Shown one piece after another: positions 21,446 to 63,772 of a stretch of DNA of 64,000 nt. Source of the DNA: Bacillota bacterium (GTDB lineage: Bacteria > Bacillota > Clostridia > Oscillospirales > Feifaniaceae). The stretch's first letter is position 1. Each line of letters starts with the position of its first letter. The position numbers were made by a program, and so were the translations under genes. The stretch lies in the NCBI GenBank assembly GCA_030705925.1, contig JAUZPM010000002.1:1-64000 (forward strand). The letters run 5' to 3'. The notes under the pieces are model-generated. The model saw only the letters and a list, made by a program, of their open reading frames with translations, did no database searches and was not told where the DNA came from.

Positions 21446-21767
21446 AAAGCAAAGCCTTGATGACAGATAAAGCCGCGCTAACCGGGGAGTCAGCGGTGCC
21501 CTGTACCTGCAATCCGCTATAGCAGGGGCGAACGTCCGAACTGAGGTAATCGACTGTGCAGCTGCCGCGTGGTATGGTGCGTTGAGAGGCAGGCCTTATG
21601 CAATCAAAAACTGTGAACTATGTCAGGCGGGGAACCGAGCAGCATTAAGCAGATCTTTTGATGTGCCATGAGTATCCCTGCCTTGAGCATCTACCGAGCG
21701 TTCCGTGTATAGCCTATTTTCGAAGCGGACTGCGCGGTTTTATGTGACATCAAGGCACTTTGCTTTC
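21446..21767 (+). ncRNA. ffs: Signal recognition particle RNA, large (Bacillus-type)
   Basis: This stretch matches the Bacillus-type SRP RNA (scRNA) with Alu and S domains. The Alu region shows GGTGCCCTGTACC and GCAATCCGCTATAGC. The S domain contains the helix 8 core GGGGAACCGAGCAGC with a GGAA tetraloop, followed by ATTAAGCAG. The flanks pair over about 30 bases with small bulges: 21446-21478 pairs with 21732-21766. In Bacillus the precursor is trimmed by RNase III, so the mature ends probably lie inside these limits. The 3' arm ends four bases before the dnaX ribosome binding site. SRP RNA next to dnaX is a conserved Firmicute arrangement. Confidence 0.9.
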
Positions 21768-26943: not shown

Positions 26944-27690
26944 GTGAAAGACAGCATTTTTAAACAATCGTTTAGGGATATTAAAGAAAATTATTGGTTT
27001 TTTATTGTTTTGGCTGTCGGCGTAATGATTTTTTTATTTTTAGGGTTAGATATATTTTCTGGAATAATAGTAGATTTAATGTATATGTCGGATCATACAA
27101 GCGTCATTATTAAATCATTAACGTTATTATTGGTAATCGCAGTATTAACTTTAACACTATCTGTTTCAGCAGGTTTGTTTAGAAAAATTCATGATGGAAA
27201 TGTAAGCGCACAAAAAGTGTCGTTAAAATATTTTATTTGCTCTTTCTGCGCTGTCATTCTATTTTACGTTATACCGGGTATTTGTTTGTCAGTAATAAAC
27301 TTTTACAGCAATGCCGGTGATTTATTACAGATCGTATATATGCTTTTAAACTGGTTATTTATTTCGCTTGCTGTTGCTTTTGTATTGGCATCAACTTATA
27401 GAATTAATACATTTAAATATATTCTGACTTCAGTGAAGTATTGGATCACAACTGCTATATTTATGGCGGCAGGCTATATCACAAAAATATTTTCGTTTTA
27501 TTTTTCAAATATACTGTTTCCATTAAAAATTTCTGAAGAAGATTATTCATATGGATTAACGGCGGCTTATAGTTGTAATATACTTTTTTACAAAATAATC
27601 TACACTCTTTTAGCGGCTGTTTGTATTTTGCTGCTTTACGAAATAATTGTCAGGATTTATATAAGTCAGCTTGACAGGCACAAGGAATAA
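26944..27690 (+). CDS. Unknown polytopic membrane protein
   Basis: A 248-residue hydrophobic protein with about six membrane segments, a short charged N-terminus (MKDSIFKQSFRDIKENYW) and a basic C-terminal tail. The pattern resembles the DUF624/YesL-like small membrane proteins of Firmicutes but I cannot assign it. The start is GTG with a GGGAGGAAAT ribosome binding site. It lies between bioY and yabP and has its own candidate promoter. The region is AT-richer than its neighbours. Confidence 0.72.
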   Translation: MKDSIFKQSFRDIKENYWFFIVLAVGVMIFLFLGLDIFSGIIVDLMYMSDHTSVIIKSLTLLLVIAVLTLTLSVSAGLFRKIHDGNVSAQKVSLKYFICSFCAVILFYVIPGICLSVINFYSNAGDLLQIVYMLLNWLFISLAVAFVLASTYRINTFKYILTSVKYWITTAIFMAAGYITKIFSFYFSNILFPLKISEEDYSYGLTAAYSCNILFYKIIYTLLAAVCILLLYEIIVRIYISQLDRHKE

Positions 27691-28871: not shown

Positions 28872-29303
28872 TTGGGGTTCGAAGTCGGAATGGTGGTTGA
28901 CGGGAAAATAACCGGCATTACAAAGTTTGGCGCTTTTGTCGCACTGCCGGACGGAAAGTCAGGCATGATTCATGTGTCCGAAATTTCAAATGAGTATGTA
29001 AAGGAAATCCGTGATTACGTAAAAGAGGGAGATACGGTTAAGGCTAAAGTTATATCTATAGATAACGAAGGCAGAATTAGCTTATCAATTAAACAGCTCA
29101 CGGAAAATAAACAGCAAAAACGTGCTCCGCGCCCGGTCAGGGTTTTCAGCGGAGTGCCTGATGATATTGACTGGTCAAGGAAGACAGAAACGGGATTTGA
29201 GGATATGATGAGCCGTTTTAAACAGGACAGTGATGAAAAAATCTCCGCGATCAGACGGAATTTTGAATCAAAACGTGGCACTTCATATAAAAAAAGAGGT
29301 TAG
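28872..29303 (+). CDS. S1-domain RNA-binding protein (YabR/general stress protein 13 type)
   Basis: One S1 domain covers residues about 1-75: GMVVDGKITGITKFGAFVAL, GKSGMIHVSEIS, VKAKVISID and GRISLSIKQ. A basic tail follows with a conserved DDIDWSRK-like and FEDMMSRFKQDSDEKI segment seen in YabR. 143 residues. It starts at TTG with an AAGGGGGA ribosome binding site. Exact role unknown; relatives associate with ribosomes. Confidence 0.85.
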   Translation: MGFEVGMVVDGKITGITKFGAFVALPDGKSGMIHVSEISNEYVKEIRDYVKEGDTVKAKVISIDNEGRISLSIKQLTENKQQKRAPRPVRVFSGVPDDIDWSRKTETGFEDMMSRFKQDSDEKISAIRRNFESKRGTSYKKRG

Positions 29304-29360: not shown

Positions 29361-29381
29361 TTACTGTTTGTTCTTTTTTAT

Positions 29382-29459
29382 AAAATAAAAAGACCGGCAT
29401 TCTTGCCGGCCGCAAAGGAAAACAAAACAATGAAAGGGCAAATGAAGGGAGTAAACAAC
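29382..29459 (-). ncRNA. Candidate small regulatory RNA
   Basis: The minus strand has a consensus promoter at 29494-29466, a predicted start near 29459, and a compact terminator (CCGGCA/TGCCGG stem at 29409-29394, then TCTTTTTATTTTAT). The predicted RNA is about 78 bases long and contains no obvious start codon with a ribosome binding site. Its 5' half has unpaired C-rich motifs CTCCCTTC (29451-29444) and CCCTTTC (29438-29432) that are complementary to Shine-Dalgarno sequences, like known C-rich sRNAs in Firmicutes. No database match was possible. Confidence 0.55.
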
Positions 29460-29465
29460 AGCTAT

Positions 29466-29494
29466 ATATTAACACGACTTACATAATATGTCAA
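29466..29494 (-). promoter_or_regulatory. Consensus promoter of the candidate sRNA
   Basis: On the minus strand TTGACA (29494-29489) and TAATAT (29471-29466) are separated by 17 bases. No minus-strand protein gene lies downstream. Confidence 0.65.
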
Positions 29495-29532
29495 CAGGTT
29501 TTCTGAAAAAGTTTTATTTTTTTGGAGGAAAA

Positions 29533-30687
29533 ATGTTAATCATTAATGCACATATATTGCCAATGGACGGAACTTCGATCGAAAACGGATATATCTATAT
29601 CAAAAACGGCAAGATTTCCGCTGTCGGAAATATGGATGATATTCCGGATACTTTAAATAATTCAGGTAATAAATTTGATGCAAAGGGTGCTCTGGCATTA
29701 CCAGGATTTGTGGACGCACATTCACATATCGGCATGTGGGAGGATGGGCTTGCGTTTGAAGGTGATGACGGCAATGAAAACACAGATCCGTCAACACCTA
29801 ATATGCGCGCAGTTGACGCAATAAATCCAATGGATTTTGCATTTACAGAAGCACTTGACGGAGGAGTTACTACTGTTGTAACCGGACCCGGCAGTTCCAA
29901 CCCTGTGGCTGGGCAATTTGCCGCCATTAAAACTTATGGACGCAGGATTGAAGATATGCTGATCAAGGCTCCTCTTTGCATGAAATTTGCTCTCGGAGAG
30001 AATCCGAAAATCAGTTTTACTGAAAAGGGAAACGCTCCGAAAACGAGGATGGCAACTGCTGCAATTATTAGAGAAACGTTGTCTAAAGCGGTTGAGTATG
30101 CAGAAGGCAAGCGGAAAAAGAATAAGGACGATCGTCCTGAGTATGATGCAAAAAGTGAAGCAATTCTTCCTCTTTTGGAGGGCAAAATATTTGCGCAGTT
30201 CCATGCTCACAGGGCAGATGATATATTCACAGCGATAAGGATCGCAAAAGAATTTAAAATTAAATATGTAATTACCCATTGCACTGAGGGGCATCTTATA
30301 GCGGATATACTTGCTAAGGAGGGCGCAAGGGCTATCGTAGGGCCAAGCCTTGCCACGCGCAGCAAACCGGAACTGAAAAATCAGTCTTTTGAAACGCCTG
30401 CTGTATTATCTAAAGCCGGAGTAACTACTGCTATTACCGTTGACCACCCGGTGTTGCCTCAGCAGTTTTTGCCACTTGCAGCCGCTTTAGCGGTTAAAGC
30501 CGGTATGGAAAAAGAGGAAGCCTTAAGGGCGATAACCATAAATGCCGCTGTTATTTCCGGGATTGATGAAAGAGTTGGATCAATTACTGTAGGAAAAGAT
30601 GCGGACATTGTGGTTTTTGATCGGGATCCGCTTGATATAATGGCTAAAACGATTTTTATTACGGTGAATGGCAAACGGGTAAAGTAG
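29533..30687 (+). CDS. Amidohydrolase (imidazolonepropionase-like)
   Basis: Metal-dependent amidohydrolase-superfamily enzyme, 384 residues. The first metal motif appears as PGFVDAHSHIG, then HAHRADDIF and YVITHCTEGH supply further His ligands, and VDHPVLP follows; the C-terminus has the composite-domain GSITVGKDADIVVFD. It is a cytoplasmic hydrolase of a cyclic amide or related compound; the substrate is not evident. I start it at ATG 29533 with GGAGG five bases upstream; the ATG at 29488 has no ribosome binding site. It is followed seven bases later by the fumarase alpha gene. Confidence 0.85.
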   Translation: MLIINAHILPMDGTSIENGYIYIKNGKISAVGNMDDIPDTLNNSGNKFDAKGALALPGFVDAHSHIGMWEDGLAFEGDDGNENTDPSTPNMRAVDAINPMDFAFTEALDGGVTTVVTGPGSSNPVAGQFAAIKTYGRRIEDMLIKAPLCMKFALGENPKISFTEKGNAPKTRMATAAIIRETLSKAVEYAEGKRKKNKDDRPEYDAKSEAILPLLEGKIFAQFHAHRADDIFTAIRIAKEFKIKYVITHCTEGHLIADILAKEGARAIVGPSLATRSKPELKNQSFETPAVLSKAGVTTAITVDHPVLPQQFLPLAAALAVKAGMEKEEALRAITINAAVISGIDERVGSITVGKDADIVVFDRDPLDIMAKTIFITVNGKRVK

Positions 30688-30693
30688 GAAAAT

Positions 30694-31536
30694 ATGAGAG
30701 AAATTAATGTAAATATTATTACTCAAACAGTCGAAAGACTTTGCATTGAAAGCAATCTTAAACTTCCGGCTGATATTGAGAAAGCAATAAGAGATGCGTC
30801 TAAAAATGAAGAATCAGCATTGTCATGCGACGTTATGCAAACTATATGTGATAACATGGATGCCGCGGCTGAAATGAATCTTCCAGTTTGTCAGGACACC
30901 GGTATGGCAGTGGTATTTTTGTCAATTGGTCAGGATGTTCATTTTACAGACGGAAACCTTTATGACGCAGTAAACGAAGGTGTGCGAAAAGGTTATCTAA
31001 ATGGATATTTGCGGCTGTCTGTTGTAGAGGACCCGTTAAGACGTAAAAACACCGGTGATAATACCCCAGCTGTAATTCATACAGAAATTGTGCCGGGTGA
31101 CCGGGTTCGTGTAATCGTCGCCCCAAAAGGATTTGGCAGTGAGAATATGAGTGCCCTTAAAATGTTTACACCATCAGCGACTCGTGACGATATATTGACA
31201 TTCATTACTGATACTGTAAAGAAGGCCTCAAGTAATCCATGCCCTCCAATCATAGTCGGCGTTGGTATCGGTGGCACATTTGAAAAATGTGCGGTACTTG
31301 CAAAGCAGGCTCTTATTACACCGTTAGACTGTCCAAATTCAGACTCTTTTTATGCAGAAATGGAGAAAGATGCGCTTTCTGCCATTAACGAGACCGGCAT
31401 AGGACCTGCCGGTTTAGGCGGGAAAACAACTGCTCTCGGAGTGCGCATCAAAGCATTTCCTACACATATTGCCGGGCTTCCCGTTGCTGTTAATATCGGG
31501 TGTTACGTGTCCCGCCACAAAGAGGAAACCATTTGA
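30694..31536 (+). CDS. Fumarate hydratase class I, alpha subunit
   Basis: Alpha (N-terminal) subunit of the two-subunit iron-sulfur fumarase/L(+)-tartrate dehydratase, 280 residues. The cysteines for the [4Fe-4S] cluster are seen in LPVCQDTGMAVVF, the EKCAVLAKQAL region and near the C-terminus in NIGCYVSRH. Class I enzymes of this split form need a beta subunit, which normally follows directly; here the next gene is hpf, so the partner must be elsewhere. The tartrate-versus-fumarate question cannot be settled from the alpha subunit. Confidence 0.88.
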   Translation: MREINVNIITQTVERLCIESNLKLPADIEKAIRDASKNEESALSCDVMQTICDNMDAAAEMNLPVCQDTGMAVVFLSIGQDVHFTDGNLYDAVNEGVRKGYLNGYLRLSVVEDPLRRKNTGDNTPAVIHTEIVPGDRVRVIVAPKGFGSENMSALKMFTPSATRDDILTFITDTVKKASSNPCPPIIVGVGIGGTFEKCAVLAKQALITPLDCPNSDSFYAEMEKDALSAINETGIGPAGLGGKTTALGVRIKAFPTHIAGLPVAVNIGCYVSRHKEETI

Positions 31537-63695: not shown

Positions 63696-63772
63696 TGGTC
63701 GGAGTGGCGGGAGTTGAACCCACGGCCTCTTGGTCCCGAACCAAGCGCTCTACCAAACTGAGCCACACCCCG
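63696..63772 (-). tRNA. tRNA-Pro (anticodon CGG)
   Basis: The minus strand folds as a complete cloverleaf of 77 bases: acceptor CGGGGTG/CACTCCG (one G-U pair), D-arm GGCTCAGTTTGGTAGAGC, anticodon arm CTTGG-TTCGGGA-CCAAG with CGG at the anticodon, T-arm GTGGGTTCAACTCCC-type, and an encoded CCA. Its position at the edge of an accessory region makes it a possible integration site. Confidence 0.93.

Follow-up and report, generated by a model that had tools for sequence, protein, structure and literature searches.

In the LhrC family of Listeria, UCCC-type motifs presented in the hairpins of multicopy small RNAs (sRNAs) act at ribosome-binding sites. The RsaE/RoxS sRNAs of Staphylococcus and Bacillus are small and have several unpaired C-rich regions that can pair with G-rich Shine-Dalgarno (SD) sequences (PMC4409812). 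FsrA from B. subtilis is reported to bind SD sequences via a C-rich motif, and IsrR from S. aureus, which is regulated by iron and Fur, is composed of three stem-loops with C-rich loops (PMC9410917). Here we describe a well supported, conserved sRNA gene at 29494-29382 on the minus strand of the window, meaning the whole 64,000-nucleotide stretch of DNA that was analysed. Like RsaE/RoxS, the predicted sRNA is small, with its own promoter and terminator and unpaired C-rich regions. It shares exposed C-rich regions with the iron-sparing sRNAs IsrR and FsrA, and UCCC-type motifs with LhrC. However, RoxS contains a duplicated CCCCUUUGUU box and conserved structured regions, whereas the window sRNA lacks that box (motif as given in PMC4409812), carries ACUCCCUUCA..RCCC at its extreme 5' end, and is structured only in its terminator. 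It further differs from RsaE/RoxS in order and in synteny. Unlike IsrR, it has a linear 5' seed and a consensus vegetative promoter, and unlike LhrC, it is linear and present in a single copy.

The features of the locus and its neighbourhood are:

28872..29303, plus strand: yabR-type S1-domain RNA-binding protein (GSP13/CvfD-like), convergent with the sRNA
29382..29411, minus strand: intrinsic terminator, with a stem at 29411-29392 (8 bp, 6 G-C, loop of 4) and a T-rich tail
29384..29459, minus strand: predicted sRNA of about 76 nt, part of a unit conserved in about 20 genomes
29432..29438, minus strand: C-rich box 2, CCCTTTC (CCCUUUC in the RNA), putative second seed
29443..29452, minus strand: C-rich box 1, ACUCCCUUCA, a nearly invariant candidate seed that lies 5-10 nt from the predicted RNA 5' end
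29451-29444, minus strand: C-rich motif CTCCCTTC, inside box 1
29466..29474, minus strand: extended -10 box TGtTAATAT
29494-29489, minus strand: -35 box TTGACA of the sRNA promoter
29533..30687, plus strand: amidohydrolase-family protein, divergent from the sRNA
30694..31536, plus strand: fumarate hydratase (Fe-S class) alpha-type protein

The original prediction placed a TTGACA-17-TAATAT promoter and a tight terminator around an RNA of about 78 nucleotides with C-rich boxes in its 5' half, and the locus agrees closely. The promoter lies at 29494-29466, with TAATAT at 29471-29466 separated from the -35 box by a 17-nt spacer and additionally preceded by a TG extension. The hairpin reads GGCCGGCA-agaa-UGCCGGUC and is followed by the tail TTTTTATTTT. 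Start and end positions predicted from the promoter and terminator (about 29459 and about 29384) would give a transcript of about 76 nt, with its two boxes at 29451-29444 and 29438-29432 within the sequence UGUUGUUUACUCCCUUCAUUUGCCCUUUCAUUGUUUUGUUUUCCUUUGC that separates the -10 box from the terminator stem. Folding predicts that the whole RNA outside the terminator hairpin is unpaired, and the probability of being unpaired reaches 0.97 for box 1 plus the start of box 2, as the original prediction had supposed for these motifs. Across copies the corresponding value for the motif is 0.60-0.99, above shuffled sequences in every copy tested.

Viewed singly, the signals at this locus are weak evidence. 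Between 28000 and 31000 we found eight promoter-like sites where 7.8 are expected, so the promoter match alone is no better than chance. Terminators exceed expectation in the same interval (nine against 2.7), and single terminator sites prove little by themselves. The locus nonetheless stands far above chance because the whole promoter-motif-terminator unit is conserved in other genomes.

Two kinds of search establish this conservation. A blastn search with positions 29375-29500 against 59 related genomes returned same-family matches that cover only the promoter through the C-rich box, the remainder having diverged. Within these, the 5' block TTGTTTACTCCCTTCAAATGCCC is identical in four genomes (G001, G002, G006, and G007), each with a different terminator stem sequence. 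A pattern search with ACTCCCTTCAWWTRCCC (one mismatch) and a sequence-only covariance model (R1), run over 394 genomes of the order, then gave clear copies in the window's own family (f1) and in families f4, f5, f9, and f10. The original prediction had staked itself on conservation of the promoter and hairpin in relatives, and both recur in six of the eight same-family genomes as well as in at least four other families. When GTDB 220 was scanned with one genome per species, an extra copy emerged on contig L088, from a metagenome-assembled genome (MAG) labelled Oscillospiraceae, together with a weaker case without a clear -10 box on contig L081, labelled Marvinbryantia. Altogether, related genomes in at least five families of this order yielded about 20 further copies, of which two lack a scoring promoter, and each genome holds one copy. 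Named carriers include 'Candidatus Galloscillospira excrementipullorum' and several 'Clostridia bacterium' MAGs from rumen and gut. Among 391 genomes sampled from the class, none outside the order had a convincing copy, and two model matches there were judged by their context to be chance. Most contig matches outside Clostridia (Helicobacter, Bacteroidales, Saprospiraceae, and others) were likewise attributed to chance by context, as was one IMG/VR viral contig match in unrelated surroundings.

Alignment of the copies shows where constraint is concentrated. The 5' block, with consensus ACUCCCUUCA-(0-2 nt)-DRCCC and usually ACUCCCUUCA-WW-DRCCC, is almost invariant, lies 9-14 nt beyond the -10 box, and is predicted to be unpaired; exceptions are the G015 copy, which is missing both W positions, and the G148 copy, in which the CCC box is altered. 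Upstream, all f1 copies have TTGACA/T as the -35 box, and the -10 box is TG-extended in most copies of the unit. The second box is kept in f5, f9, and L088 as CCCTTTCAC, also given as ACCCUUUCAC(UUCC), is recognisable in f4 as CCCTTTGAC, and is missing from several copies in f1 and f10. The expectation that both C-rich boxes would be conserved was thus borne out for the first, which is the most conserved part of the unit, and for the second in f5, f9, and L088, but not in much of the window's family. Two promoter-distal forms are seen in f10, one copy (L064, from G098) has an additional hairpin 5' of the motif, and the terminator stem that lies downstream of the motif in other copies varies in sequence between families.

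The search pattern itself partly imposes the invariance of the core. Copies were compared with 20 loci carrying one-mismatch cores and with 20,000 random positions, under a single scoring rule (promoter score of at least 9/12, with the -10 box ending 4-17 nt before the motif). The one-mismatch loci have no comparable promoters; they were rejected as members and served as controls. Promoters at this score accompany 13 of 21 copies, none of the 20 controls, and 1.7% of random positions, and a strict terminator scan succeeded for 16 of 21 copies, three of 20 controls, and 4.6% of random positions. Both signals coincide at 0.1% of random positions. The f4 copies fail the -35 criterion only and have a perfect, TG-extended TATAAT as their -10 box, and the copies on L041, L008, L064, L088, and L081, which fail the strict terminator rule, have terminator-like hairpins by eye. 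Because the copies outperform the controls for both promoter and terminator, both belong to what is conserved. Two observations speak against the copies being purely an artefact of the search: blastn recovered the f1 copies without use of that pattern, and mismatched cores lack promoters.

A conserved block behind a promoter could be explained without an RNA element. The block spans roughly +3 to +20 of the promoter, where a DNA operator might be expected, but it is not palindromic, it occurs once per genome whereas the operator of a regulon would recur, and a terminator follows within about 35-75 nt with no open reading frame between. We therefore regard an operator as very unlikely. The block could also be read on the opposite strand, where the original prediction had noted a 14-codon peptide as an alternative. 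Its complement in the copies is [AT]TG AAG GGA GT, so that an open start (ATG/TTG-AAG-GGA-GTN, encoding MKGV...) is always present, with AAAGGG as a possible ribosome-binding site. However, the lengths of these frames are very different, and after MKGV they share no residues beyond those that the complementary promoter dictates (for example, MKGVADLA* in L008 and MKGVANI* in L088). The AAG and GGA codons show no synonymous variation, even in G+C-rich genomes, the initial ATG is TTG in G001, G002, G006, and G007, and the promoter and T-run terminator are oriented the opposite way. With neither length nor continuation conserved, a small peptide gene appears highly improbable.

The order and orientation yabR - sRNA - amidohydrolase - fumarase is retained in full or in part in f1, f5, f9, and L088. 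The sRNA adjoins yabR and/or the amidohydrolase-fumarase pair in the window's genome (G000), G004, G011, G015, G057, L088, and L081, and a fumarase gene adjoins it in two f10 genomes (G181 and G249). Wherever the arrangement is readable, the sRNA is directed to yabR and away from the amidohydrolase. In other f1, f4, and f10 genomes it sits at other locations, and the regions upstream of amidohydrolase orthologues in 28 further genomes of the order yielded no copy. This distribution is consistent with vertical inheritance from an ancestral site followed by relocation, and shows that the sRNA is independent of the genes beside it, a point in favour of action in trans. A terminator shortly after a promoter is also what a cis-acting attenuator or leader would display. 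However, the next gene, yabR, is convergent in the window and in syntenic genomes, and no alternative antiterminator fold is apparent. Because the genes downstream in the direction of the sRNA vary among genomes, it is not the leader of one gene, and we consider a cis-acting role extremely improbable. As to the neighbours themselves, yabR apparently starts with TTG at 28872 (GGGGGACATTTATTTG), and although the amidohydrolase is listed as a 399-aa open reading frame from 29488, a start at 29533 behind TTTGGAGGAAAAATG is more likely. Elsewhere in the window, a 248-aa probable membrane protein (26944-27690, plus strand) adjoins yabP and has no Pfam or NCBIfam match.

Comparison with catalogued RNAs returned no family for this sRNA. 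Searching Rfam 15 over 29384-29459 yielded nothing at gathering score or credible at permissive thresholds; the best match was a sub-threshold rseX (30.9 of 50 bits), and the RsaE covariance model gave no match at gathering score or at E up to 10. RsaE, which the original prediction had offered as an example, is therefore an analogue only, and an RsaE-like mode of action is plausible by that analogy. Searching the literature for the sequence gave only unrelated papers among the matches listed, and we found no sRNA study of the clade and no description of this sRNA in open-access papers. As in known C-rich, SD-pairing sRNAs, the locus forms a predicted independent transcription unit (promoter, intrinsic terminator, and no open reading frame), and its motif is predicted to be unpaired and is conserved across species. 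The best reading is a previously uncatalogued sRNA family of this known kind. Other RNA genes in the window are a full-length bacterial large signal recognition particle RNA (21473-21737, plus strand; 175 bits, Rfam) and a tRNA-Pro (CGG) (63696-63772, minus strand; ARAGORN and Rfam). In genome G052, a sub-threshold Gut-1 RNA match (L050, 1855-1911, plus strand; 38.6 bits against a cut-off of 50, E 1.6e-4) lies about 340 nt downstream of the sRNA motif.

We think it likely that the gene encodes a trans-acting sRNA with its own sigma-A promoter and terminator, whose C-rich seed pairs with SD stretches. The vegetative promoter and intrinsic terminator would yield the RNA of about 76 nt, whose first 30 or so nucleotides are predicted to be unstructured and to carry the seed ACUCCCUUCA followed by the R-CCC box. 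The 5' block is an anti-SD-like sequence predicted to be single-stranded at the very 5' end, a layout familiar from the C-rich sRNAs RoxS/RsaE, IsrR, and FsrA of Bacillota (PMC4409812; PMC9410917), and from this we infer seed pairing with ribosome-binding sites. The seed probably base-pairs with GAAGGGAG-type SD stretches of several mRNAs, and such pairing would block ribosome binding and thereby lower translation and mRNA stability. In the window's own genome, GAAGGGAG and TGAAGGGAGT precede start codons at seven and two sites, respectively, and the candidates named by eye include two ECF-sigma-like genes and homoserine-dehydrogenase-like, Wzz-like, and DnaE-like genes. The two ECF-sigma-like genes (L154 and L156, on contigs C12 and C80) are 36% identical, and both have GAAGGGAG as their ribosome-binding site; they are the most suggestive of these candidates. 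Scans for GAAGGGAG/TGAAGGGAGT before start codons found no target with a complementary ribosome-binding site clearly common across families; the one cross-family orthologue pair (a glutamyl-tRNA synthetase-like gene, L181/L226) could be chance. Across 69 gene starts in the window, duplex energies were no better than those of shuffled sRNA (mean -17.5 versus -17.1, sd 0.6), and the duplex with the amidohydrolase start (-9.0 kcal/mol) is the weakest among nearby genes, so that this neighbour is not a predicted target.

The main live rival accepts a real, conserved sRNA but supposes that its C-rich block binds a protein, either the neighbouring S1-domain protein or another, as a sponge or cofactor without antisense pairing. 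The 5' block is conserved letter for letter over families while the predicted SD targets are not, and the S1-domain gene yabR adjoins the sRNA in G000, G004, G011, G015, and G057. However, many copies keep the block outside any yabR neighbourhood, and similar C-rich, SD-pairing sRNAs are well documented in Bacillota (PMC4409812; PMC9410917). On balance we judge a protein-binding role unlikely, and prefer SD pairing in trans. A bolder reading, which we hold to be rather improbable, is a clade-wide global riboregulator in which the seed has been frozen across families as its targets turned over, possibly with YabR as RNA partner. If such a partnership existed, the sRNA and its chaperone would be genetic neighbours in the ancestral arrangement.

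To our knowledge, reports of trans-acting sRNAs whose conservation extends past a single genus are rare in Bacillota, and we know of little sRNA annotation in this order, many of whose members are uncultured bacteria of the gut and rumen. This locus supplies a defined gene, together with its putative seed, its promoter, and a conserved genomic position. If confirmed, the sRNA family would merit an Rfam entry, and would provide a test case for an sRNA seed that stays fixed over families without an obvious fixed set of targets.
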